From: an uncultured Bacteroidales bacterium
GTDB lineage: Bacteria > Bacteroidota > Bacteroidia > Bacteroidales > Bacteroidaceae
Reading direction: 5' to 3'
Assembly: GCA_902785075.1 (NCBI GenBank)
Contig: CACZXN010000001.1
Location: 62,001-126,000 of the forward strand
Length of the DNA: 64,000 bases
Below the pieces are notes generated by a model. It saw nothing but the letters and a program-made list of their open reading frames with translations. It did not search any database and was not told the origin of the DNA. Within the stretch, counting starts at the first letter, position 1; every line of letters begins with the position of its first letter. The translations under genes were made by a program, and so were the position numbers. This document shows positions 29,679 to 56,233 of this stretch, piece by piece.

Positions 29679-29892
29679 TTTTTCTAAATCTACACACAGT
29701 GTTATGCAAGTGATCCCTATAGTCTCTTTATATTCTATCAGGTTATTTCAATAAAACTCCATACTTTTTACACATCATATCTCTAGTTCTTCTCTAGTTC
29801 TTCTCTAGTTCTTCTCTAATTTGAAACTAGAGATGAATTGGAGATAAAGTAGAGTAGAACATAGCATAAATATAAGAATCACTATAGCAGCA

Positions 29893-30018
29893 ATGGTGAA
29901 AGACATGTATGGTGCTATCGGAAGAGTAGGGAGGATTACGAGGACGATTGATTCGCAGTGTGGGACTAAAATTAACAACCTTTATGAAAAAGGAATGTTA
30001 AAGGAGATTAAAGGGTAG
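29893..30018 (+). CDS. Putative 41-residue small protein (copy 1)
   Basis: ATG to TAG, starting MVKDMYGAIGRVGRITRTID and ending KEIKG; basic, no membrane segment. The other repeat copy (55915-56040) keeps the frame without indels. Of eight base differences four are silent third-position changes and four change residues. This favours translation only weakly, since flanking DNA is also conserved. It lies upstream of the leader promoter and could equally be a conserved regulatory DNA. No family recognised. Confidence 0.4.
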   Translation: MVKDMYGAIGRVGRITRTIDSQCGTKINNLYEKGMLKEIKG

Positions 30019-30050
30019 TTATAGTTTGTTTTGCAAAGAATGATTGATAT

Positions 30051-30089
30051 TTGTCAATTTATTAGGGATTTCTAGAAAAAATTTGACAA
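30051..30089 (+). promoter_or_regulatory. TTGTCAA/TTGACAA inverted repeat upstream of the gltB leader
   Basis: Half-sites at 30051-30057 and 30083-30089, about 32 bases centre to centre and just upstream of the promoter. Both half-sites and spacing are conserved in the partner repeat (55843-55881). A candidate activator or repressor site. Confidence 0.5.
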
Positions 30090-30152: not shown

Positions 30153-30314
30153 ATGATATTCGGACAAGTGTTTCAAAACACATTTGACATACTGAGCCAG
30201 TTTGGTAATCAGTCATGGAATAATAAGAAGAACTCGAATTATAATTGGGTTCTCTCTAATGTGTTGTGTCCATTCACCAGTCCGATGGACTTACAAGAAA
30301 AGATTAGAGTATGA
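30153..30314 (+). CDS. Asn/Gln-rich leader peptide of the glt operon (53 aa)
   Basis: 53 codons, of which 13 are Asn or Gln (Gln 5, 8, 16, 20, 48; Asn 9, 19, 23, 24, 27, 29, 31, 36), densest over residues 16-36. After the rich stretch comes VLSNVLCPFTSPM, which aligns with VLCCSLCESTSRM of the second leader, so the two are homologous. It is followed after 26 bases by a terminator and then gltB. This is the layout of amino-acid operon attenuators: uncharged tRNA-Gln or tRNA-Asn would stall the ribosome here. An ATG at 30111 opens the same frame but overlaps the promoter and is rejected. Confidence 0.75.
   Translation: MIFGQVFQNTFDILSQFGNQSWNNKKNSNYNWVLSNVLCPFTSPMDLQEKIRV
30268..30290 (+). promoter_or_regulatory. 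Leader hairpin and antiterminator segment
   Basis: GTCCAT (30268-30273) and ATGGAC (30285-30290) form a 6-bp hairpin. Its loop contains ACCAGTCC (30276-30283), which is the exact complement of GGACTGGT in the terminator's 5' arm (30342-30349). Pairing of the two would block the terminator. Confidence 0.6.
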
Positions 30315-30340
30315 TAAAGATTATAAATGTTTATGAGAAG

Positions 30341-30375
30341 GGACTGGTTCTTTTACGGAATCAGTCCCTTTTTTA
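30341..30375 (+). terminator. Attenuator terminator before gltB
   Basis: GGGACTGGTTC (30341-30351) pairs with GAATCAGTCCC (30359-30369) around a short loop, followed by six T. It lies 26 bases after the leader stop codon and about 90 bases before the gltB ATG, so without antitermination the operon would be cut off. Confidence 0.85.
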
Positions 30376-30463: not shown

Positions 30464-33400
30464 ATGGTAACATTGTATGAGAAGAGTAATGAACACGATG
30501 CTTGTGGCATCGGTTTATTGGCGGATTTGAAGCGTACCAAAACTCATCAGTTGGTCGATGAGGCCCTAACGGTTCTTGAAAACATGAAACACAGGGGGGC
30601 TGAATCGGAAACTTCGACGCTGAAGGGGGGTAAAGCATCGGGCGACGGTGCTGGTATCTTGTTGCAGATTCCGCATGAGTTTATCTTGTTGCAGGGAATT
30701 CCTGTGCCTGAACGTGGTAGATATGGTACGGGATTGGTATTTCTACCTAAGGACAAGAATTTGCAGGATGCGTATGTGGAGCTGATTCATCGTGAGGTAG
30801 AGGGTGCAGGACTGACATTGTCGCATGTACGTAACGTCCCTGTCAACTCTGACATTCTAGGTGAGGCTTCTGCAGCTACGGAGCCTGATATCATTCAGTT
30901 GTTTATCACGGGTGTGAATGACGTGGAGCGGTTCGAGACCGACCTGTATCTGCTTCGCAAGCATATCGAGCAGAAGATTCAAGACAAGGATTTTTATATT
31001 GTATCGTTGTCGAGTCGGGTGATTATCTACAAGGGCATGCTGACTTCCACTCAGCTTCGCGAGTATTATCCCGACTTGAGCAATCCGTTCTTTACAAGTG
31101 GAATGGCGATTGTCCATTCGCGTTTCAGCACGAACACATTCCCAACTTGGTCGCTTGCCCAGCCGTTCCGTATGTTGTCACACAATGGTGAAATCAACAC
31201 TATTCGTGGCAATCGTGGTTGGATGGCAGCACGTGAGAGTGTGCTCTCATCGCCGGCTTTGGGCGACGTGAAGGGTATTCATCCGATTATTCAGCCCGAC
31301 ATGAGCGACAGTGCTTCGTTCGATAATGCTCTGGAGTTCTTTGTCCGTTCAGGAATGTCTTTGCCTCATGCCATTTCGATGATGGTACCTGAGTCGTTCA
31401 ACGACTTGAATCCTATCAGCGACGAGTTGAAGGCTTACTATGAATATCACTCCATCTTGATGGAACCTTGGGACGGTCCGGCTGCCCTGTTGTTCTCGGA
31501 TGGTCGATATGCTGGCGGAATGCTCGACCGAAACGGTCTGCGCCCATGTCGCTATCTTATTACCGAGGATGGTATGCTCATCGTGGCTTCAGAAACCGGT
31601 TGCCTGAAGGTTGATCCAGGACTGATAAAAGAAAAGGGTAAGTTGCAGCCTGGCAAGATCATGATGGTCGATACGGAGGATGGAACCATCTACACGAACG
31701 ATGAAATCAAGCTGAAACTGACTCAGCAATGTGAATACAGCCGTTGGTTGCATACAAACCGCATCGAGTTGGGTAAGTTACATAGCGGAAGGAAGGTGGA
31801 GAACGGTGTGGACGACTTCACACGCAAACTGCGTGGCTTTGACTTCACGCGTGAGGATGTAGATAAGGTGATTGTACCGATGTGTGTAAATGCTCAGGAG
31901 CCGCTCACCTCAATGGGAAACGACACTCAGTTGGCCGTACTTTCCGACCGTCCGCAGCTACTCTTCAACTATTTCCGTCAACAGTTTGCACAGGTGACCA
32001 ACCCACCTATCGACCCTATCCGCGAGGAGTTGGTGATGTCGCTCACAGAGTATATCGGAGCTGTAGGTATGAACATACTGACACCCAACGAGTCGCATTG
32101 CAAGATGGTGCGTCTGCCACAACCTGTTTTGACAAATACAGAGTTGGATATCCTTTGCAACATTCGCTACAAGGGTTTTAATACAGAGAAACTATCCATC
32201 CTGTTCGATGCCGACAAAGGTGAAGAGGGAATGCGTCAAAGACTCGAAGAGCTATGTAGTGAGGCGGAGAAATCGGTTGATAAGGGTATCAACTACATCA
32301 TCCTTTCCGATCGCGGCATTGACGGCGAGCATGCTGCCATTCCTTCATTGTTGGCCGTAAGCACCATTCATCATTATCTGATTTCCGTACAGAAACGTGT
32401 CCAGACAGCTCTTATTGTTGAGAGTGGTGAGATACGTGAGGTGATGCATGCAGCCCTTCTGTTGGGTTACGGAGCAAGTGCCATCAACCCTTATATGGCC
32501 TTTGCAGTCATCGATGATTTGGTAAAGCGTGGCGAGGTTCAGCTCGACTATGCTACAGCAGAACGCAACTACATCAAAGCCATCGATAAGGGTTTGCTGA
32601 AGATTATGAGCAAGATGGGTATCTCAACCATACGTTCATATCGTGGAGCCAAGATTTTCGAACCGGTAGGACTGAGCGAGTCCTTACTTCGCAACTATTT
32701 CGGAACAGCCTCATCGACTATCGGAGGAATAGACCTGAAGCAGATTGCAACTGATGCCGTACGCATGCACCAGCAGGGCTATGCATCCGAGCCAGACGAT
32801 GTATTGCCCTTCATCGGACAATATTCGTTCCGTAAGGATGGTATTCTGCATGCCTGGACACCCGATGCGATTGCTACGCTACAGTTGGCAACCCGTCTGG
32901 GCAGTTATAAGAAATTCAAGGAGTTCACCCATATCATCGACGATGTCGAGCAACCTTTGTTCCTGCGTCAGTTCTTCCGTTTCAAGTCCAACCCCATCCC
33001 GTTAGAGGAAGTGGAACCAGAGGAGCAAATCATGCATCGTTTCATCGGAGCAGCCATGTCGTTCGGAGCAATCAGCAAGGAGGCTCATGAGGCGATTGCC
33101 TTAGCGTTGAACAAGATAGGCAGTCGAAGCAACACAGGCGAAGGAGGCGAAGACGAAAGCCGTTTCAAGGGTGAGGTCGAAGGAGTGTCGCTCTCGAGTG
33201 CCGTGAAACAGGTTGCATCAGGACGATTTGGCGTAACGACTGAATATCTGGTGAACGCCAAAGAGATACAAATAAAAGTGGCACAAGGAGCCAAGCCTGG
33301 CGAGGGAGGACAATTGCCTGGCTTCAAGGTCAACGAAATCATAGCGAAGACTCGTCACAGCATACCAGGTATCTCACTCATCTCGCCTCCACCTCATCAC

Positions 33401-34942
33401 GACATCTACTCCATCGAGGACCTTGCACAGCTGATTTTCGACCTCAAGAACGTAAATCCCGAAGCCCAGATCAGTGTGAAACTCGTAGCAGAGAGCGGTG
33501 TGGGCACCATTGCTGCAGGAGTAGCAAAAGCAAAAGCCGACATCGTAGTCATTTCGGGTGCCGAAGGAGGCACAGGCGCATCACCTGCCTCATCAGTACG
33601 CTATGCAGGCGTTTCGCCCGAGATTGGTTTGGCTGAGACACAGCAGACCCTTGTGCTCAACGGTTTGCGCGACAAGATAGAGATTCAGACCGACGGGCAA
33701 TTGAAGACCGGACGCGACATCGTCAGCATGGCACTTCTCGGAGCAGGTCAGTTCGGCTTCGGAACCATCCAACTCATCGTGCTCGGCTGTGTGCTCATGC
33801 GTAAGTGTCACACCAACAGCTGTCCCGTCGGGGTAGCCACTCAAGACCCACGTCTGCGTGCCCACTTCCTCGGACGGTCGGAATACCTCGTAAACTACTA
33901 CACCTTCCTCGCACGCGAGGTACGTGAGTATATGGCAGAGATGGGATTCCGACACTTCGACGATATGATAGGACGTACCGACATGATCGAAATCGACCAG
34001 TCACGATGTACAGAGAAAACCCGCACACTCGACTTCACACGTCTGCTCTCGCTCATCGACAACGGGCATCCGCTTCATGCCGTTTCACACCCTATACATA
34101 AAATCTACGACGTACTCGACCGCGATATGATGATGGCAAGTCAGGAAGCCCTCAACGCACATCAGAACGTAACACTCCATTACGACATCGTCAACACCAA
34201 CCGAGCTGTCGGAGCCATGATTTCCGGTCAGATAGCAAAAACATACGGAGGTGAGGGACTGCCCGAAGGTACCATCAACATACACTTCAAGGGGTCGGCA
34301 GGTCAGTCGTTCGGAGCGTTCCTCATGCGAGGCATCTCGTTCACCCTCGAAGGCGAGACCAACGACTACATGGGCAAGGGTCTCTCGGGAGGATGCATCA
34401 GCCTCTATCCGCCTCGACACTCCAAGTTCCAGGCAGCTGACAACATCATCGCCGGCAACACACTACTCTACGGAGCAACTAGCGGAGAGGTGTATATCAA
34501 CGGCAGGGTAGGCGAACGATTTGCCGTCCGCAACTCAGGAGCCACAGCTGTTGTCGAAGGTGCAGGCGACCATTGCTGCGAATACATGACAGGCGGACGA
34601 GTCGTCGTGCTGGGCACCACAGGTCGCAACTTCGCAGCCGGTATGTCGGGCGGACTCGCATACGTGTGGGACCGAAACCACGACTTCGACTACTATTGCA
34701 ACATGGACATGATCGAACTCAGTCTCATCGAGGAGAAAGCACGACGCGACGAACTCCACGAACTCATCCGACGTCATTACCTGCGTACAGGCTCACCGCT
34801 CGCCAAACAGATGCTCGACGACTGGAACCACTATGTCGAACAGTTCATACAAGTCACTCCTATCGAATACAAACGAGTGCTGCACGAAGAAGCGATGCGA
34901 CAACTCGACCAGAAAATCAACCACATACAGAGAGACTATTAA
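30464..34942 (+). CDS. gltB: Glutamate synthase large subunit
   Basis: 1492 residues. It moves the amide of glutamine to 2-oxoglutarate, giving two glutamates. N-terminal class II glutaminase with the nucleophile Cys14 exposed after removal of a 13-residue propeptide (NEHDACGIG). The central domain follows, then the FMN synthase domain (about 850-1200) with GEGGEDESRFKG, and the 3Fe-4S cysteines in CVLMRKCHTNSCPVG. The GXGXG C-terminal helix domain holds GSAGQSFGAFLMRG. First gene of the plus-strand operon behind the Asn/Gln leader. Confidence 0.98.
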   Translation: MVTLYEKSNEHDACGIGLLADLKRTKTHQLVDEALTVLENMKHRGAESETSTLKGGKASGDGAGILLQIPHEFILLQGIPVPERGRYGTGLVFLPKDKNLQDAYVELIHREVEGAGLTLSHVRNVPVNSDILGEASAATEPDIIQLFITGVNDVERFETDLYLLRKHIEQKIQDKDFYIVSLSSRVIIYKGMLTSTQLREYYPDLSNPFFTSGMAIVHSRFSTNTFPTWSLAQPFRMLSHNGEINTIRGNRGWMAARESVLSSPALGDVKGIHPIIQPDMSDSASFDNALEFFVRSGMSLPHAISMMVPESFNDLNPISDELKAYYEYHSILMEPWDGPAALLFSDGRYAGGMLDRNGLRPCRYLITEDGMLIVASETGCLKVDPGLIKEKGKLQPGKIMMVDTEDGTIYTNDEIKLKLTQQCEYSRWLHTNRIELGKLHSGRKVENGVDDFTRKLRGFDFTREDVDKVIVPMCVNAQEPLTSMGNDTQLAVLSDRPQLLFNYFRQQFAQVTNPPIDPIREELVMSLTEYIGAVGMNILTPNESHCKMVRLPQPVLTNTELDILCNIRYKGFNTEKLSILFDADKGEEGMRQRLEELCSEAEKSVDKGINYIILSDRGIDGEHAAIPSLLAVSTIHHYLISVQKRVQTALIVESGEIREVMHAALLLGYGASAINPYMAFAVIDDLVKRGEVQLDYATAERNYIKAIDKGLLKIMSKMGISTIRSYRGAKIFEPVGLSESLLRNYFGTASSTIGGIDLKQIATDAVRMHQQGYASEPDDVLPFIGQYSFRKDGILHAWTPDAIATLQLATRLGSYKKFKEFTHIIDDVEQPLFLRQFFRFKSNPIPLEEVEPEEQIMHRFIGAAMSFGAISKEAHEAIALALNKIGSRSNTGEGGEDESRFKGEVEGVSLSSAVKQVASGRFGVTTEYLVNAKEIQIKVAQGAKPGEGGQLPGFKVNEIIAKTRHSIPGISLISPPPHHDIYSIEDLAQLIFDLKNVNPEAQISVKLVAESGVGTIAAGVAKAKADIVVISGAEGGTGASPASSVRYAGVSPEIGLAETQQTLVLNGLRDKIEIQTDGQLKTGRDIVSMALLGAGQFGFGTIQLIVLGCVLMRKCHTNSCPVGVATQDPRLRAHFLGRSEYLVNYYTFLAREVREYMAEMGFRHFDDMIGRTDMIEIDQSRCTEKTRTLDFTRLLSLIDNGHPLHAVSHPIHKIYDVLDRDMMMASQEALNAHQNVTLHYDIVNTNRAVGAMISGQIAKTYGGEGLPEGTINIHFKGSAGQSFGAFLMRGISFTLEGETNDYMGKGLSGGCISLYPPRHSKFQAADNIIAGNTLLYGATSGEVYINGRVGERFAVRNSGATAVVEGAGDHCCEYMTGGRVVVLGTTGRNFAAGMSGGLAYVWDRNHDFDYYCNMDMIELSLIEEKARRDELHELIRRHYLRTGSPLAKQMLDDWNHYVEQFIQVTPIEYKRVLHEEAMRQLDQKINHIQRDY

Positions 34943-48859: not shown

Positions 48860-51046
48860 TTAGTTGATAAACAGCAGCTCACGATACTTCGGTAGCGGCC
48901 ACAGGTCGTTATCAACCACCTCTTCGAGCTTGTCGATGGGGCGACGGATGGCGAAGAGCGACTCGGCTATGTCGTAGTAGGCTAGGGCTTTCGCGCGTTC
49001 GTCCTCTATCTTGTTGGCTGCCTTACGGGCTTCGACCATCGCTGCACACTTGGTGCGGATGTCCTCAATGAGTTTGGTGACTCGCTGGAGCAACGCCAGT
49101 TCGGTCTGAGCCATCGATTCGAAGTCGTCGGGATAGAGTGTCTTGAGTTGGGTGATGATGGTGAGCAGACGATTCTTATAAGCAAGGGCTGCAGGGATGA
49201 TGTGGTTCTGCGCCATACGTCCCATCACGCGTGCCTCGATCTGCACTTTCTTCGTGTAAGTCTCCCACTTCACTTCGTTGCGAGCTTCAAGTTCAGGACG
49301 GGTATAGACTCCTGTCTGCTCGAACATCTCGACAGATGACGGTTTGGTGAACTCATCGAACATCAGCGGCACGCAGGTCTCGGTGTCCAGTCCGCGACGC
49401 TTTGCCTCTTCCTTCCATTCATCGGTATAGCCGTTTCCGTCGAAGCAAACGGTGTCGATGATGCTGGCGATAAGGGGCTTGAGTACATCCATGAAGGCGA
49501 TATTCATAGGTTTGCCTGCTGCCATTTCTTTATCAACCTCTACCTTGAATGCTGTAAGCTGTTCGGCTACGGCGGCATTCAGCGTAGTCATGGCTCCTGC
49601 ACAGTTGGCACTCGAACCTACGGCTCGGAACTCAAAGCGGTTGCCCGTGAAGGCAAACGGAGAGGTGCGGTTGCGGTCGGTGTTGTCGATGAATATCTCG
49701 GGTATCTCAACCAGTCCTACTGATGCTCCTTTCTTGCCTGCTATCTCGATCGGTGTGTCTGACGGTACTTCGAGCAACTTACGCAGCACGTTCGTCATGG
49801 TGTGTCCCAAGAAGGAAGATATGATGGCTGGAGGGGCCTCGTTGGCTCCCAAGCGGTGAGCGTTGGTTGCGGTAGCAATAGATGCCTTAAGCAGGGCGTG
49901 ATGCTTCTGAACGGCTACAAGCACATTGACGAAGAAGGTGACGAACTGGAGGTTGCCCATCGCGTCCTTACCTGGAGCGAGCAGCAGGGTTCCGGTATCG
50001 GTACCGAGCGACCAGTTGTTGTGCTTTCCGCTTCCGTTGATGCCTGCAAAGGGTTTCTCGTGGAGCAGAAGTACAAAGCCGTGCTTGCGAGCGATCTGCT
50101 GCATGAGATTCATAATCATCTGGTTCTGGTCGTTCGACAGATTGGTCTCTCCATAGATAGGTGCCAGCTCAAACTGGTTGGGTGCGACCTCGTTGTGACG
50201 GGTCTTGAGAGGAATGCCGTGACGATAGCCAGCTATCTCAACATCCTTCATGAACTCCATAACACGCGAAGGGATGGCTCCGAAGTAGTGGTCGTCCAGC
50301 TGCTGATTCTTCGACGACTCGTGTCCCATAAGGGTACGTCCTGTAAGCATGAGGTCAGGACGTGCTGCATAGAGGTCTTCATCGACAAGGAAATACTCTT
50401 GTTCCCATCCGAGATATGAAAAGACCTTACGCACCTTCGGGTCGAACATCTGACAGATGGGCACAGCTGCATCGCTGACTGCCTTGAGCGACTTCTTCAG
50501 CGGAGTCTTGTAGTCGAGCGCCTCACCCGTGTAGGAGATGAACACGGTAGGGATGCAGAGGGTGTCGTCCTGAATGAATACGGGCGAGGTAGGGTCCCAA
50601 GCCGTATAACCTCGTGCCTCGAAAGTGGCACGTATGCCTCCACTGGGGAATGAGCTGGCATCAGGCTCCTGCTGACTGAGCGACTTACCGTCGAACTGTT
50701 CGAGCATACCACCCTTACCGTCGTACTCCATCAGGGAGTCGTGCTTCTCGGCTGTACCCTCAGTAAGCGGCTGGAACCAGTGAGTGACATGAGTGACTCC
50801 ATGTTCCATAGCCCAGGTCTTCATCCCTTCGGCCACCTCGTCAGCAATAGCGCGAGTGAGCGGATGACCGTTGTCGATGCAGTCGATGAGTGCCTCATAG
50901 GTCTTTGAGTCGAGATACTTGTGCATGTTCTCGCGGTTGAACACCAATTCTCCGAAATACTTCGAAGTCCTTTCGGTCGGACTTTCGGCAGGAACTGCTT
51001 TCTTCTTGAACGCATCCTGAACCACGTCAAATCTCAGTTTGCTCAT
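48860..51046 (-). CDS. glnN: Glutamine synthetase type III
   Basis: 728 residues, the GSIII size (GSI is about 470). The N-terminal GSIII domain starts MSKLRFDVVQDAFKKKAVP; the catalytic part has LHEKPFAGINGSGKHNNWSL, holding the ATP/glutamate site, and EVAPNQFELAPIYGE. A long C-terminal helical region (about 600-728) is GSIII-specific. Makes glutamine from glutamate and ammonia. Last gene of the P-II/amtB/asnB operon; the 223-base gap to asnB contains C/G repeats and TATTGACTATTGAC units. No adenylylation motif, as expected for GSIII. Confidence 0.96.
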   Translation of the reverse strand: MSKLRFDVVQDAFKKKAVPAESPTERTSKYFGELVFNRENMHKYLDSKTYEALIDCIDNGHPLTRAIADEVAEGMKTWAMEHGVTHVTHWFQPLTEGTAEKHDSLMEYDGKGGMLEQFDGKSLSQQEPDASSFPSGGIRATFEARGYTAWDPTSPVFIQDDTLCIPTVFISYTGEALDYKTPLKKSLKAVSDAAVPICQMFDPKVRKVFSYLGWEQEYFLVDEDLYAARPDLMLTGRTLMGHESSKNQQLDDHYFGAIPSRVMEFMKDVEIAGYRHGIPLKTRHNEVAPNQFELAPIYGETNLSNDQNQMIMNLMQQIARKHGFVLLLHEKPFAGINGSGKHNNWSLGTDTGTLLLAPGKDAMGNLQFVTFFVNVLVAVQKHHALLKASIATATNAHRLGANEAPPAIISSFLGHTMTNVLRKLLEVPSDTPIEIAGKKGASVGLVEIPEIFIDNTDRNRTSPFAFTGNRFEFRAVGSSANCAGAMTTLNAAVAEQLTAFKVEVDKEMAAGKPMNIAFMDVLKPLIASIIDTVCFDGNGYTDEWKEEAKRRGLDTETCVPLMFDEFTKPSSVEMFEQTGVYTRPELEARNEVKWETYTKKVQIEARVMGRMAQNHIIPAALAYKNRLLTIITQLKTLYPDDFESMAQTELALLQRVTKLIEDIRTKCAAMVEARKAANKIEDERAKALAYYDIAESLFAIRRPIDKLEEVVDNDLWPLPKYRELLFIN

Positions 51047-51269: not shown

Positions 51270-52949
51270 CTAATACGCCTGCTCGTGTACTCCTTTCACG
51301 GCTCGTCCACTTGGATCGTTCATATTCTTGAACGCTTCGTCCCATTCCAAAGCGATTGCCGTGCTGCATGCTACGGATGCTTCCTGGTTCACACTTCGGG
51401 CAGCTGAGTCGCTTGGGAAATGCTCGGCAAAGATGGAGCGGTAGTAGTATTCCTCCTTGTTCAGGGGTGGGTTGATGGGGAATCGCTCGGAGGCATGCGC
51501 CATCTGTTCGTCTGTCACAGCCTCGGATGTGATGCGCTTCAGCGTGTCAATCCAACTATAGCCTACCCCATCGCTGAACTGCTCCTTCTGTCGCCATGCT
51601 ACACTTCGAGGCAGCATATCAGCGAAACCTTCACGAACCACACCTTTTTCGATGGTCGAACCTGGACACATCTTCAGTTCGGGGTTGACGGACATGGCTA
51701 TGTCAAGGAATTCCTTGTCGAGGAAGGGAACTCGTCCTTCGATGCCCCAAGCCATGAGTGACTTGTTGGCTCGCAGGCAGTCATAGAAGTGAAGCTTGGA
51801 GAGTTTACGTACGGTTTCCTCATGAAAGGCCTTTGAGTCGGGCGCCTTGTGGAAATACAGATAGCCTCCGAATATCTCGTCAGCTCCTTCGCCCGACAGC
51901 ACCATCTTGATGCCCATCGAACGAATGACGCGAGCCAGCAGGTACATGGGTGTGGATGCACGAACCGTAGTGACATCATACGTCTCAGTATAGTAAATCA
52001 CATCGCGGATAGCATCGAGGCCTTCTTGGATGGTGTAGTTCACCTCGTGGTGTACGGTTCCGATATAATCGGCAACCTCGCGTGCCTTAGCCAAATCGGG
52101 TGCACCCTTCAACCCTACAGCGAAGCTATGCAGGCGTGGCCACCAAGCATCGTGCTCGTCGTTCGTCTCTATACGCTTAGCAGCATAGAGCTTTGCGATG
52201 GCCGACACGACAGAACTGTCTAATCCGCCCGAGAGGAGTACCCCGTAAGGCACATCGCTCATCAACTGACGCTTCACAGCTGCCATCAGACCCTGCCGGA
52301 CTTGACTGACTGCCTCAGTACGGTCGGAAGTGGCCCAATGCATGCCTTCGTACTTCATCCAAGGACGTTTGTACCAACGCTCAATTCGGCAACCCGACTT
52401 GCTCGAACAGTAGTGGCCTGGAGGAAACGGTTCGTAATGCTCACACTGACCCTCCAAGGCTTTTAGCTCAGAGGCCACATAGACGGTTCCCTCACTGTCG
52501 TGTCCGATATACAAAGGGATAACACCTATTGCATCGCGAGCCACAAGAAAGTCGTCTGTCTCAGCATCGTAGAGCACGAAGGCGAAGATGCCGTTCAACT
52601 TGTCGAGGAAGTCAACCCCATACTGCTCATAGAGTGCCAGGATGACTTCGCAATCCGACCCCGTCCTGTACTGATACTGAATGTCGGTCTCCATCCTCAG
52701 CAGCTGGTGATTGTAGATCTCGCCATTCACTGCCAGCACTTTCTTCCCGTCGGGCGAATAGAGGGGCTGACCGCCTGAAAGGGGATCGACGATTGCCAAA
52801 CGTTCGTGTGAGATGACTGCATGGTCGCAGCTGTACATTCCACTCCAATCCGGACCACGATGACGAATCTTTGCCGACATCTTCAGCGCCTGCTCACGCT
52901 TCTGATGAGCATCACCCTTGATTTTTAATATTCCTACAAAACCACACAT
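51270..52949 (-). CDS. asnB: Asparagine synthase B (glutamine-hydrolysing)
   Basis: 559 residues. Class II glutaminase with catalytic Cys2 (MCGFVGILKIKG) and NGEIYNH, and the synthetase domain with the pyrophosphate loop GVLLSGGLDSSVVSA. Makes asparagine from aspartate, ATP and glutamine. Length matches E. coli AsnB. Its product and that of glnN are the two residues enriched in the leader peptide of this operon. Starts 66 bases after the stop of the outer-membrane protein gene. Confidence 0.97.
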   Translation of the reverse strand: MCGFVGILKIKGDAHQKREQALKMSAKIRHRGPDWSGMYSCDHAVISHERLAIVDPLSGGQPLYSPDGKKVLAVNGEIYNHQLLRMETDIQYQYRTGSDCEVILALYEQYGVDFLDKLNGIFAFVLYDAETDDFLVARDAIGVIPLYIGHDSEGTVYVASELKALEGQCEHYEPFPPGHYCSSKSGCRIERWYKRPWMKYEGMHWATSDRTEAVSQVRQGLMAAVKRQLMSDVPYGVLLSGGLDSSVVSAIAKLYAAKRIETNDEHDAWWPRLHSFAVGLKGAPDLAKAREVADYIGTVHHEVNYTIQEGLDAIRDVIYYTETYDVTTVRASTPMYLLARVIRSMGIKMVLSGEGADEIFGGYLYFHKAPDSKAFHEETVRKLSKLHFYDCLRANKSLMAWGIEGRVPFLDKEFLDIAMSVNPELKMCPGSTIEKGVVREGFADMLPRSVAWRQKEQFSDGVGYSWIDTLKRITSEAVTDEQMAHASERFPINPPLNKEEYYYRSIFAEHFPSDSAARSVNQEASVACSTAIALEWDEAFKNMNDPSGRAVKGVHEQAY

Positions 52950-53015: not shown

Positions 53016-53717
53016 CTACAACCCGAAGCTCATTCCTACGACCAGATAGGCTTTCTGACTACAAGGATTGGCCGAGACTTCTCCGAAGATGGGGATGGAG
53101 AAAGAGTCTGTCACCTTTATGTCCTTCGATGCACGAACTGCCAGGTTGGTTACTGCAAAGCCGTTTGTGCCATAGAAATCAGTGGCATAAGGAACTGCTC
53201 CAACGGTAGCTGTCCAGTCACAAGTAGCGAGTTTGAAGGGGGCGGCAACCTCAAAATAACTGCTATAGGCGCGCTTGCCATCCTTGTTCACTCCATCGTT
53301 GCCTGAAATATTCGTGTACCACTGTGCACTTACCACTCCGAAATCGTAGCCGATGTTTGCTTCGAACACATGGTTTGTACCATGGGCATCATACTTGAAG
53401 TAGCGATCCTGTGGATCAAGCCCTGCATTGAACCAATAGTCAGTAATGCCTATGTTCAGGCCTCCGATGGTATACCCGAGTGTGATATCAAACTCTTTCG
53501 TATCGGCAGGATCGGCAAGTCCTACACTTCCCCAAGCCGAGAGCGAAATGCCTTTATACTCCAAACCAAGTGTCGGTTGCAGGCTCACTCCTCCCAGATC
53601 TTGACCACGCCAAATATAACTACTTACGATGTCACTACCAATCGTTGTACTAATCTCTTGTGCCTCTACGGCCATTGTTGCTCCGCAGAGCAATATCATT
53701 GCAAATATCTTTTTCAT
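53016..53717 (-). CDS. Putative outer-membrane beta-barrel protein of the amtB operon
   Basis: 233 residues. Signal peptide (about 1-19, MKKIFAMILLCGATMAVEAQ), then alternating amphipathic strands such as SSYIWRGQDLGGVSLQPTLG and ISLSAWGSVGLADPADTKEF, ending in an aromatic-terminated strand (VVGMSFGL), typical of outer-membrane barrels. No precise family recognised. Its place between amtB and asnB suggests an outer-membrane entry route for a nitrogen source, which is inference. The spacer to amtB is a TAAACTTTAAACT repeat array. Confidence 0.7.
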   Translation of the reverse strand: MKKIFAMILLCGATMAVEAQEISTTIGSDIVSSYIWRGQDLGGVSLQPTLGLEYKGISLSAWGSVGLADPADTKEFDITLGYTIGGLNIGITDYWFNAGLDPQDRYFKYDAHGTNHVFEANIGYDFGVVSAQWYTNISGNDGVNKDGKRAYSSYFEVAAPFKLATCDWTATVGAVPYATDFYGTNGFAVTNLAVRASKDIKVTDSFSIPIFGEVSANPCSQKAYLVVGMSFGL

Positions 53718-53779: not shown

Positions 53780-55036
53780 TTAGTTATAACAACTCTCTCC
53801 ATGTTCATAAATATCAAGACCTTCTTCCTCGATACGGGCATCCACACGGAGTCCATGCAGTTTCTTGATGCCGTAGAACAGGATGAATCCACAACCTGCT
53901 GCCCAGAGGTCAATCATGAGGATACCGAAACACTCAGCTCCGAAGAAGCCCCAACCGCCGCCGTAGAAAGCTCCGTTCTCTGTAGCCAACAAACCTGTCA
54001 TCAGGGTGCCAAGGATACCGCATACACCATGTACTGAGCTTGCACCTACAGGGTCGTCAATGTGGAGCTTGTGGTCGATGAACTCAATGGCGAAGACCAA
54101 GACAGTACCGCAGACCAGACCGATGATAACGGCTCCAACAGGTGAAACAAGGTCGCAACCAGCTGTGATACCTACAAGTCCTGCCAAGATGCCGTTCAAG
54201 GTCAGAGAAAGTGATGGCTTACCGTATTTCAACCAAGTGACGAACATTGTTGCCACACCGCCAGCTACTGCTGCGAGGTTGGTTGTCAGGAATACATGGC
54301 TGATGGCCGTACGGTTCACCTCACCGCTTGCAGCCAACTGACTACCTGGGTTGAAGCCGAACCAACCTAACCAGAGAATGAATACGCCAAGAGCTGCAAG
54401 TGCCAGGTTGTGTCCAGGAATAGCACGGCTCTTACCGTCCTTACTATACTTACCAAGACGTGGACCCAATGCCATTGCACCGACAAAAGCCAAGACGCCA
54501 CCTACGCTGTGCACAATAGCAGAACCTGCAAAATCGTGGAACACATCGCCAAACGTCGACATCATGAATCCGTCGGCTGCATCGTTGCAGAGCCAACCGC
54601 CGCCCCAAGTCCAATGGCCTTCTACAGGATAGATAATCAGTGAGATAAAGGCGCTATAGACCAAATACATAGAGAACTTAGTGCGTTCGGCCATGGCTCC
54701 GCTCACGATGGTAGCAGCTGTGGCACAGAAAACTGTCTCGAAAATCAAGAAACCCTCTACTGGCAGGTCGCCCGAATAAAAGCTCAGGTCGCCCCAATTA
54801 GGTATACCGACGAATCCGCCGAGAATATCGCCTCCGAACATAAATCCGAAGCCTATAAAGAAGAACAACAGACTACCGAACATAAAGTCCACAAAGTTCT
54901 TCATCAAAATGTTTGCCGCATTCTTACGACGAGTGAAACCTGCTTCGCACAATGCAAAACCTGGTTGCATCCAGAAAACTAACATGGCTGCCAATAGCAT
55001 CCAAACTGTATCGAGTGATAAACCTATTTCGTTCAT
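53780..55036 (-). CDS. amtB: Ammonium transporter AmtB
   Basis: 418 residues, about eleven helices. FWMQPGFALCEAGFTRRKN begins the protein, and the two pore histidines are expected in FAGSAIVHSVGGV and SSVHGVCGILGT. Brings ammonium into the cell. There is no N-terminal signal extension. It follows the P-II gene, the classical glnK-amtB pairing, in which P-II plugs the channel when nitrogen is plentiful. The C-terminal cytosolic tail (IKKLHGLRVDARIEEEGLD) that P-II touches is present. Confidence 0.97.
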   Translation of the reverse strand: MNEIGLSLDTVWMLLAAMLVFWMQPGFALCEAGFTRRKNAANILMKNFVDFMFGSLLFFFIGFGFMFGGDILGGFVGIPNWGDLSFYSGDLPVEGFLIFETVFCATAATIVSGAMAERTKFSMYLVYSAFISLIIYPVEGHWTWGGGWLCNDAADGFMMSTFGDVFHDFAGSAIVHSVGGVLAFVGAMALGPRLGKYSKDGKSRAIPGHNLALAALGVFILWLGWFGFNPGSQLAASGEVNRTAISHVFLTTNLAAVAGGVATMFVTWLKYGKPSLSLTLNGILAGLVGITAGCDLVSPVGAVIIGLVCGTVLVFAIEFIDHKLHIDDPVGASSVHGVCGILGTLMTGLLATENGAFYGGGWGFFGAECFGILMIDLWAAGCGFILFYGIKKLHGLRVDARIEEEGLDIYEHGESCYN

Positions 55037-55174: not shown

Positions 55175-55522
55175 TTACTTCTTGTCCCTTAAAACTGTGT
55201 CGCCGTGCTCACCCGTTCGGATGCTCCATGTGTCGATCATATCGCTCACGAAAATACGGCCGTCGCCTACCTCGCCAGTATGAGCCACTTTCAATATGAC
55301 GTTGACTGTAGGTTCTACAAACTGGTCGCGGCACACAATTGTGATGGCCACACGCTCAATCACGTCAGTCGAATACTGCACGCCGCGGTAGATTCTCTCC
55401 TCACGGCTCTGACCGATACCATGAACGTTATGATACTCAAACCAGTTGATGTCCGACTCCAAAAGAGCCTCCTTCACATCCTCGAACCTCGTCTTTCGGA
55501 TAATTGCTTCAATCTTTTTCAT
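55175..55522 (-). CDS. glnK: P-II nitrogen regulatory protein
   Basis: 115 residues. MKKIEAIIRKTRFEDVKEAL at the start, the C-loop signature VGDGRIFVSDMIDTWSIRTG, and a T-loop GIGQSREERIYRGVQY that keeps both tyrosines but is one residue shorter than in E. coli GlnB/GlnK. P-II proteins bind ATP/ADP and 2-oxoglutarate and control AmtB and glutamine synthetase. First structural gene of the minus-strand operon, 67 bases after the attenuator terminator. The symbol follows its linkage to amtB; glnB is equally defensible. Confidence 0.93.
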   Translation of the reverse strand: MKKIEAIIRKTRFEDVKEALLESDINWFEYHNVHGIGQSREERIYRGVQYSTDVIERVAITIVCRDQFVEPTVNVILKVAHTGEVGDGRIFVSDMIDTWSIRTGEHGDTVLRDKK

Positions 55523-55588
55523 GTTTTACCTTGTGTTTGTGTTGTGTTAATACTTAATGATTTTTCTCTGTGTTTGTGTTGTAGCTAC

Positions 55589-55624
55589 AAAAAAAAGGCT
55601 GATTCTCTCGGAACCAGCCTTTAC
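55589..55624 (-). terminator. Attenuator terminator before the P-II gene
   Basis: Minus strand: AAAGGCTGGTTC pairs with GAATCAGCCTTT around CGAGA, followed by a run of T. It lies about 30 bases after the leader stop. Shape and the GGTTC...GAATC core match the gltB-side terminator. Confidence 0.88.
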
Positions 55625-55656
55625 TTAATATTTAAATACTCTATTGTTCAGTCTTA

Positions 55657-55779
55657 CTATATGTTCATCCGACTGGTAGATTCACACAACGAACAACAGA
55701 GAACCTGATTATTATTCTGGTTCTGCTGATTATTCTGATTATTATTCAGACCTACGTTGTATGTTCTTACGAATGACAT
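55657..55779 (-). CDS. Asn/Gln-rich leader peptide of the P-II/amtB/asnB/glnN operon (40 aa)
   Basis: 40 codons starting MSFVRTYNVGL. Residues 12-25 are an unbroken run of 14 Asn/Gln (NNNQNNQQNQNNNQ: nine Asn, five Gln). Then comes VLCCSLCESTSRM, homologous to the other leader. Codons 35-37 contain ACCAGTC, which can pair with GGCTGGT in the terminator (7 bp, one G-U). A ribosome stalled in the run would leave this segment free; one reaching the stop four codons later would cover it. This is the geometry expected of a transcription attenuator sensing charged tRNA-Asn/Gln. Confidence 0.85.
   Translation of the reverse strand: MSFVRTYNVGLNNNQNNQQNQNNNQVLCCSLCESTSRMNI
55671..55677 (-). promoter_or_regulatory. 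Antiterminator segment inside the leader
   Basis: Minus-strand ACCAGTC, complementary to GGCTGGT in the terminator 5' arm (55612-55618). Equivalent in position to ACCAGTCC at 30276-30283. Confidence 0.6.
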
Positions 55780-55806
55780 TTTGTCGTGTTTGTTTGATTT
55801 CGGGTG

Positions 55807-55814
55807 CAAATTTA
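55807..55814 (-). promoter_or_regulatory. Promoter -7 box of the P-II operon leader
   Basis: Minus-strand TAAATTTG, in the same context (GTCGTAAATTTGCACCCGA) as the gltB leader promoter. About 28 bases before the leader ATG. Confidence 0.75.
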
Positions 55815-55842
55815 CGACCATTTCCCGAAACAGAAAAACATT

Positions 55843-55881
55843 TTGTCAACTTTTTTCAAGAAATCCCTAATAAATTGACAA
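55843..55881 (-). promoter_or_regulatory. TTGTCAA/TTGACAA inverted repeat upstream of the P-II leader
   Basis: Half-sites at 55843-55849 and 55875-55881, same spacing as at 30051-30089. Located just upstream of the promoter. Confidence 0.5.
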
Positions 55882-55914
55882 ATATCAATAGTTCTTTTAC
55901 AAAATAAGCGATAA

Positions 55915-56040
55915 CTACCCTTTAATCACCTTTAACATTCCTGTTTCATAAAGGTTGTTTATTTTAGTCCCACACTGCGAATCAACCGTCCTTGTAATCC
56001 TCCCGACTCTTCCGATAGCTCCATACACGTCTTTCACCAT
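55915..56040 (-). CDS. Putative 41-residue small protein (copy 2)
   Basis: Starts MVKDVYGAIGRVGRITRTVD and ends KVIKG. It differs from copy 1 at four residues (Met/Val, Ile/Val, Lys/Thr, Glu/Val) with no indel. Same distance to the promoter as copy 1. No family recognised; coding status is uncertain. Confidence 0.4.
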   Translation of the reverse strand: MVKDVYGAIGRVGRITRTVDSQCGTKINNLYETGMLKVIKG

Positions 56041-56233
56041 TGGTGCTATAATGATTCTTATATTTATGCTATGTTCAACTCTACTTCATCTCTACTATAT
56101 CTCTAATTATAGAATTGGAGATGAATTGGAGATATGATGTGTAAAAAGTAAGGAGTTTTATTGAAATAACCTGATAGAATATAAAGAGACTTTAGGGATC
56201 ACTTGCATAACACTGTGTGTAGATTTAGAAAAA

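Follow-up and report, generated by a model that had tools for sequence, protein, structure and literature searches.

A predicted asparagine- and glutamine-sensing attenuator with a pseudoknot step in the leaders of nitrogen operons of Bacteroidaceae

The window, by which we mean the whole stretch of 64,000 nucleotides that was analyzed, carries on its reverse strand an operon in which the gene for a glnK-type P-II protein is followed by amtB, the gene of a predicted outer-membrane protein (OMP), asnB and glnN (Table 1). The class of the OMP is presumed by us from the appearance of the product. Part of the leader ahead of the P-II gene spans positions 55814 to 55588 (reverse strand) and comprises a −7 promoter box, an open reading frame (ORF) rich in Asn and Gln (N/Q) codons, the word ACCAGTC near the end of this ORF and an intrinsic terminator. 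On the forward strand, gltB is preceded by a sister leader. An earlier note on this DNA had described the 40-codon ORF with its 14 unbroken Asn/Gln residues and the terminator behind it, as well as the pairing of ACCAGTC with GGCTGGT over 7 bp with one U·G and a counterpart of this pairing on the gltB side; our reading agrees on each of these points, and the gltB counterpart, ACCAGTCC with GGACTGGT (plus strand), comprises 8 bp.

Table 1. Positions in the window of the two leaders, their parts and the genes behind them
Feature	Position	Strand	Description	Basis
Dyad	55875..55888	-	TTGATATTTGTCAA; its start lies 74 nt 5' of that of the −7 box; gltB copy at 30044-30057, also at 74 nt	
−7 promoter element	55806..55814	-	TAAATTTGC, Bacteroidota type	
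P-II leader ORF	55657..55779	-	40 codons + TAG, MSFVRTYNVGLNNNQNNQQNQNNNQVLCCSLCESTSRMNI	read from sequence
Control codons	55705..55746	-	14 consecutive Asn/Gln, codons 12-25 of the leader ORF	sequence
Hairpin P1	55701..55723	-	GAACC..GGTTC within the control codons	predicted fold
Hairpin S1	55660..55688	-	TGTGTGAATCT-ACCAGTC-GGATGAACATA, antiterminator word in the loop	predicted
Loop word ACCAGTC	55671..55677	-	codons 35, 36 and first base of 37; 5' strand of predicted antiterminator helix S2	
GGCTGGT	55613..55619	-	S2 3' strand, within the 5' arm of the terminator	
Terminator hairpin	55594..55622	-	intrinsic, 12 pairs, then T tract	
Terminator T tract	55588..55596	-	TTTTTTTTG	
P-II gene	55175..55522	-	glnK-type, first gene of the operon	PF00543
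amtB	53780..55036	-	ammonium transporter	PF00909
OMP gene	53016..53717	-	predicted outer-membrane protein; heads the operon in several relatives	no Pfam/NCBIfam match
asnB	51270..52949	-	asparagine synthase B	NF006949
glnN	48860..51046	-	type III glutamine synthetase	PF12437
gltB leader ORF	30153..30314	+	53 codons, including 13 Asn/Gln	end of ORF and number of N/Q taken from sequence
gltB hairpin S1	30264..30296	+	GTCCAT/ATGGAC core, ACCAGTCC (30276-30283) in the loop	predicted
gltB terminator	30340..30368	+	GGGACTGGTTC..GAATCAGTCCC	
gltB	30464..34942	+	glutamate synthase large subunit	

The control codons of the P-II leader form the sole run of at least five N/Q in the six frames of the window, and the terminator is the single terminator-like site within positions 55400 to 56100, where shuffled sequences lead to an expectation of 0.2. 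The fold of this leader is more stable than all of 200 dinucleotide shuffles (z = −5.3). On the basis of the Bacteroidota consensus TAnnTTTG, we take the element at 55814 to 55806 to be the −7 box; the consensus was found upstream in each of the 39 members of the leader family described below. A longer in-frame ORF of 54 amino acids could start from the ATG at 55821, but this ATG lies upstream of the −7 box and the longer form is therefore probably not transcribed. Over a stretch of about 435 bp that includes promoter and upstream DNA, the leaders of P-II and gltB share 79% identity, and judged by this they are partly a duplication, so that the two do not count as independent evidence; independence comes from other genomes. 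Within the duplicated stretch, a similar 41-amino-acid ORF (MVKD(V/M)YGAIGRVGRITRT..) without a Pfam match precedes both leaders, at 55915 to 56040 (reverse strand) and at about 29890 to 30017 (forward strand).

The pattern from which the family was built required CTGGTTC, GAATCAG and ACCAGTC. The terminator core alone matched in 18 of 301 genomes of the bacterial family and nowhere in the backward control; 13 of its 22 sites are N/Q leaders with ACCAG, and the other nine (L042 to L050) were dropped, as ACCAG is absent nearby and their ORFs have at most 23 codons with five N/Q. A stricter RNA-only pattern, consisting of the terminator core and ACCAGTC with no coding requirement, was run on one genome per species for 84,980 species and gave 21 matches, of which 20 lie in Bacteroidaceae, Prevotellaceae or Bacteroidales MAGs (a herbivore appears in the titles of 10) and one, in Paraburkholderia, was rejected as chance. 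An N/Q-rich leader ORF is present at all 20 Bacteroidales sites, always ahead of nitrogen genes: P-II (6), an OMP/P-II operon (4), gltB (4) and glmS (6). The P-II gene of L084 is visible in L126, and the ORF of L038, below the first ORF cut-off, was found as L086, which is the same site. These matches overlap with the 301-genome set, several records being seemingly the same genomes. A comparison of the leader across Bacteroidales had been put forward in the earlier note as a check on its proposal; the ORF at all 20 sites and its joint presence or absence with the motif in the 54 loci surveyed below bear the proposal out.

A covariance model matched in 63 of 399 genomes of the bacterial family, and ORF and motif were both found in 41 of the 50 loci inspected, the other nine (L158, L163, L164, L166 to L168, L170, L171 and L173) being discarded. 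In the alignment of 39 members, the next gene encodes P-II in 17 cases, GlmS in 8, GltB in 5, an OMP in 4, AsnB in 2, and PyrG, GlnN and an ATP-grasp protein in one case each. The asnB and glnN genes start about 200 nt past the terminator, some terminators ahead of glmS have weak T tracts, and the products of glmS and pyrG consume glutamine rather than make it. The ATP-grasp gene, which is circularly permuted (PF14403), stands at locus L153 (85-1437, reverse strand) and has no obvious link to Gln or Asn. Members occur in four of 30 sampled genera (g1, g31, g40 and g46), presumably all of Bacteroidaceae, to judge by the named MAG records. Model R2, run across the order, matched in 82 of 393 genomes, and in the 27 loci inspected outside the window genome (L181 and L195, cut by contig ends, are excluded from this count) an N/Q-rich ORF and the motif were never found together; these loci resemble generic terminators and were rejected as members. 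In the window genome itself (85.5% complete), R2 at E ≤ 1 returned the two leaders and two weak reverse-strand echoes of them. By these searches the leader family appears solely in the window's own family, presumably Bacteroidaceae, in four genera.

The distribution of the leader was further surveyed from the protein side, by reading 420 nt upstream of 24 glmS loci (leaving out L228, which matched at 59% identity, and whatever matched at 30% or below) and of 30 P-II loci, out of 43 P-II protein matches. Stray matches aside (L252, with a TTG frame containing N/Q and no motif, and L246 and L212, with motif-like words distant from any terminator), ORF and motif are both present in 28 and both missing in 26 of these 54 loci. 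The 26 include four (L258, L259, L261 and L262) in which P-II stands behind an OMP gene and only the 420 nt before P-II were covered; likewise, six glmS loci have another gene preceding glmS and were covered for 420 nt before glmS. Of the 30 P-II loci, which belong to g31, half (15) show the complete set of ORF, motif and terminator, and the other 15 have no leader within 420 nt. Among the latter, the promoters of L237, L243, L244, L246, L250 and others carry a short word like ATTCATTGCAATG right after the −7 box. The 24 glmS loci, from g40, divide into 13 with all three parts, five with the terminator alone and six with none. Loci that keep the terminator without the ORF had been named in the earlier note as an outcome that would count against an attenuator; such loci do occur, in these five glmS cases (L212, L214, L216, L219 and L220), in which the motif is lost as well, and were not seen among the P-II loci examined. 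In L216, remnants of the ORF start are still present, which suggests that its leader was lost by deletion. In g1, the leader was found in five of 10 gltB loci, the five without it being at 67 to 68% protein identity, and at the 10 P-II loci it lies directly upstream in two, before an OMP gene heading the operon in three and nowhere in five, one of which is truncated by a contig end. Since half of the examined P-II and gltB loci are without it, the leader is dispensable. A survey anchored on the OMP gene found an N/Q leader with the motif in none of 30 loci within 600 nt of that gene; P-II, not the OMP, heads the operon in the window genome and in genomes G010 and G046. Upstream of P-II in other species of the genus, tandem units were seen that are GACTGCGCACTCGC-like in L007 and L008 and GAGGATATCCTCAA-like in L005.

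Each of the 39 members has an ORF with at least eight N/Q; ten window genes average 7.2% N+Q. Asn is encoded by AAT and AAC 253 and 74 times in the leader ORFs, as these were chosen by the script, and 73 and 202 times in ten window genes, and the corresponding counts of CAG and CAA for Gln are 188 and 15 in the leaders and 178 and 78 in the genes. The motif ACCAGTC, or a variant of it, is read in frame 0 in 24 members, in frame 1 in four and in frame 2 in four, and follows the stop codon in seven. Since it is kept in all three frames or just past the stop, the word is, by this comparison, conserved as RNA. The last clustered N/Q codon lies 12 to 46 nt ahead of the motif (15 to 30 nt in 37 of 39 members), and, measured from the start of the motif, the end of the stop codon falls at −4 to +39 nt; the offset is −4 to +21 nt in 34 members, which is compatible with the size of a ribosome footprint, and +39 nt in five gltB leaders. 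The earlier note had proposed that the distances suit a stalled ribosome that frees the segment and a terminating ribosome that covers it. The P-II leader, where 21 nt separate the start of the motif from the end of the stop, is compatible with such covering, but this part of the proposal does not extend to the five gltB leaders.

When the motif is held unpaired, a constraint that imposes the open loop, the stem enclosing it outdoes flank shuffles in all 36 distinct members (z from −0.31 to −4.64, mean −2.05, with 21 below −1.5). In unconstrained folds, six or seven of the seven motif bases are open in an enclosed loop in 23 of the 36; the other 13 mostly place a motif CC/GG pair inside the same outer stem, and other pairs win in L074, L079, L087 and L088. 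The stem sequences of S1 differ between groups, being GTCCAT/ATGGAC in gltB leaders, CCTGCC/GGCAGG in one OMP operon, TGTGT..ATC/GAT..ACACA in P-II leaders, TATCAG/CTGATA in the glnN leader and TACCT/AGGTA in the P-II leaders of g40. Within an alignment that was fitted to the hairpin and the terminator, which favors both, and not to the loop-terminator helix S2, 99.1% of the terminator cells are paired, and S1 and S2 together are paired in 87.2% of 624 cells, compared with 30 to 43% when slid. Cells of S1 and S2 in which both sides have changed number 24, against 7.3 in shuffles, none of 500 of which reached 24. The fold of the control-codon region also surpasses those of synonymous-codon shuffles in 32 of the 36 distinct members (mean z = −1.29), with P1 as the predicted hairpin.

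The loop word is complementary to the 5' arm of the terminator in all 39 members, the complementarity spanning 7 bp in 37 of them and 6 bp in the remaining two. It is the best complement of this arm in 31, and in the other eight another CCAG/TCAG copy, 47 to 82 nt upstream, outscores it. The terminator arm has a further complement in members with a word RACCAG/GCCAG; in the window this word is the AAC CAG of the N/Q run (55717-55723), about 46 nt before the loop motif. Helix S2 is partly fixed by the founding pattern and the members are related; relative to the commonest pairs, S2 shows no change on both sides among the 39 members. Its variable positions are A-U/G·U, twice, and U·G/U-A/C-G. 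At the last of these, the pairing had been said in the earlier note to survive a base change between the two leaders, and it is kept, by a change on one side only (U·G to U-A); over the 39 members the pair is U·G in 30, U-A in five and C-G in four, and U-A (gltB) against C-G (L148, L152, L155 and L156) is a difference on both sides. The CUGGU of the terminator 5' arm is invariant in all members, and its two partners, loop and 3' arm, differ between members by wobble changes; CTGGTTC, GAATCAG and ACCAGTC had all been required by the founding pattern. An invariant strand with wobbling partners is the pattern that would be expected of a strand common to two alternative helices. Four of the five gltB terminators have an A·C mismatch at the position where the loop helix has A-U. 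Taken across all members, the complementarity of loop word and terminator arm suggests a pseudoknot antiterminator, in which the coexistence of S1 and S2 is a prediction.

We consider it probable that the leader ORF, the ACCAGUC loop and the terminator act as a ribosome-controlled transcription attenuator with a pseudoknot step. The parts and their arrangement, conservation and complementarity were observed, as was the co-occurrence of ORF and motif; from these we infer steps of stalling, pseudoknot formation and masking that would proceed as follows. When charged tRNA-Asn or tRNA-Gln is scarce, the ribosome would stall in the N/Q run, 12 to 46 nt before the motif and, in the P-II leader of the window, 16 nt before S1. 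S1 would then persist and, as the 5' arm of the terminator emerges, pair through its loop with GGCUGGU. This pairing would make an H-type pseudoknot, its helix flanked by about 1 nt at each end, and would delay the terminator until RNA polymerase has passed. With ample Asn and Gln, the ribosome would read on to the stop codon, unfolding S1 and hiding its loop, and the terminator would form. In the gltB leaders the stop is probably too distant for simple masking, and a well-timed passage of the ribosome through S1 would be needed instead. The predicted energies are −8.3 to −12.0 kcal/mol for S2 and −14.5 to −25.3 kcal/mol for the terminators; since the terminator is the more stable structure, the choice between the two would be kinetic. 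In these gut bacteria, relatives of Bacteroides and Prevotella, the parts likely make up a switch by which the genes for ammonia uptake and for the synthesis or use of Gln and Asn would be on only as long as the two amino acids are scarce. The reading as an Asn/Gln attenuator advanced in the earlier note is thus supported by the comparison, with the amendment that a hairpin loop is the predicted place of the antiterminator segment, so that plain competition of nested hairpins is probably not how it works.

Plain competition is also the strongest of the alternatives that we weighed, though we deem it unlikely. In a plain attenuator of the trp/his type, ACCAGUC:GGCUGGU would be a nested antiterminator formed once S1 opens, and S1 would guard against read-through or pace RNA polymerase, comparable to the extra hairpin known in his (Elf and Ehrenberg, PMC1183508). 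P1 sits in the control codons, as expected of a pause hairpin, a 7-bp helix has little room in a loop of 7 to 9 nt, and no open loop is kept in 13 of the 36 unconstrained folds. Yet the his-type pairing between the tail of the control region and the 5' arm of the middle hairpin (the B:C pairing), here the tail of the run with the 5' arm of S1, was not found (mean duplex z = +0.21; 13 of 36 negative), and stems enclosing an unpaired motif are favored over shuffles in every distinct member. It is far less likely that the ACCAGUC hairpin is the site of an RNA-binding protein or another trans factor that blocks termination, with the ORF as a minor or secondary input. The co-occurrence of ORF and motif, the match of the loop word to the terminator arm throughout the family and the agreement of the control codons with the operon products all argue against such a site, although its loop would be conserved over a variable stem as here, five glmS loci keep the terminator without the ORF, and the LEU element of Actinobacteria was taken as a protein site by its discoverers, as described in PMC1262725. 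Least credible of all is an Asn/Gln-rich small peptide acting in trans, with the terminator merely as its premature stop: leader peptides can act in trans, as in the described case of peTrpL, but those of this family have little in common beyond N/Q, and their C-terminal end is read in three frames or missing over the same RNA.

Amino-acid attenuation is textbook biology. The proposed attenuator shares with the trp and his attenuators of enteric bacteria, as these are generally understood and in part described in PMC1183508, a leader ORF with control codons, an antiterminator segment near the stop codon, a terminator before the first gene and one strand common to two pairings that exclude each other, as is predicted for the present leaders. 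It differs from them in having a single run that mixes Asn and Gln codons, in the predicted position of the antiterminator word within a hairpin loop, in the use of the same loop word by several operons of a pathway, and in its phylum, Bacteroidota. A search of titles and abstract openings found no Asn/Gln leader of nitrogen genes, and the nearest cases were those of Pseudomonas aeruginosa and Flavobacterium. In the former, the leader PA5471.1 of armZ is described as an attenuator in which stalling at a Gln codon, and at a Phe codon, matters for read-through; unlike the Asn/Gln family, it is described with single Gln and Phe codons and no Asn, responds to ribosome-targeting antibiotics and tRNA end repair, and governs an efflux regulator, not a biosynthetic end-product circuit (PMC13041342). 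In the same phylum as the window, the transcriptome of Flavobacterium psychrophilum gave “strong clues” of leader-peptide attenuation ahead of amino-acid biosynthesis operons, but no Asn/Gln leader is named in the parts considered here, and the main text of that paper contains no asparagine and has glutamine once, in an unrelated context (PMC9723704). In the LEU element, a leader peptide goes together with a predicted pseudoknot ahead of an amino-acid gene; as described, the leucine-codon run pairs with the ribosome-binding site and there is no terminator, whereas in the Asn/Gln family a loop pairs with a terminator arm (PMC1262725). Naville and Gautheret (2010) stated that the leader-peptide systems known to them were confined to Actinobacteria and Proteobacteria, and reported a further one, a His leader, from Firmicutes; their systems have the same short ORF and premature terminator, and the main text has no glutamine, asparagine or “Bacteroid-” (PMC2965389). 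The map of B. thetaiotaomicron, in the part considered here, mentions sORFs reminiscent of leader peptides (PMC7366714). For Prevotella ruminicola 23, related clusters of P-II, amtB, an unknown protein and asnB, and of GSIII-2 with gltBD, are reported with large ammonium-dependent changes, the direction of which is stated inconsistently in the parts considered, and we draw no support for the leaders from them (PMC5552732).

Rfam had no match in the window at the gathering threshold and none that was credible in seven member loci at E ≤ 1; L20_leader, at 26 to 29 bits against a cut-off of 58.7, was dismissed in these loci as noise. T-box leaders and glutamine riboswitches were set aside, neither giving an Rfam match; both share with the present leaders the RNA-level control of tRNA- or glutamine-related genes, which here would act via a translated ORF.

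A second layer of control may lie upstream of the promoter. The dyad of Table 1, which we assume to be a candidate site for an FNR/CRP-type regulator, recurs as TTGAYNNNNRTCAA in 20 of the 39 members, 74 nt (19 members) or 75 nt (one member) 5' of the −7 box. The members that bear it are P-II or OMP operons of g1 and g31, the gltB of the window genome and the ATP-grasp locus. Among the g31 P-II loci, it stands at 74 nt in all 15 with a leader and at 64 to 75 nt in four of the 15 without. Since a dyad at a fixed spacing is common to many members, a DNA-level regulator, presumably of nitrogen, probably acts on the same operons.

An aromatic leader (e.g., MKTVNAYFYYFWFTRQYAG) with GCCGGG and a GCCCGG terminator was observed before DAHP synthase in 23 of 24 g40 loci (L166 1391-1489; L266-L288); as in the N/Q family, its stop shifts and GCCGGG stays. 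The display of the loop is weak in this leader, with z of −0.5 to −1.5 in 16 and positive values in two of the 18 loci tested of the 24.

One loop word, ACCAGUC, and a pseudoknot decided by the ribosome may define a new attenuator class of Bacteroidota, in which operons of seven or more kinds (P-II/amtB, OMP/P-II, gltB, glmS, asnB, pyrG and glnN) form a Gln/Asn regulon tied to the charging of Asn and Gln tRNAs; we put this forward tentatively, as a possibility somewhat short of an even chance, and the aromatic leader with GCCGGG hints that this design may be widespread in the group. If true, tRNA charging would be the gauge of nitrogen state in a major group of bacteria from rumen and gut, one common signal would govern ammonium uptake, GS-GOGAT and the synthesis of asparagine, amino sugars and CTP, and a compact pseudoknot switch would be at hand that is testable in Bacteroides.
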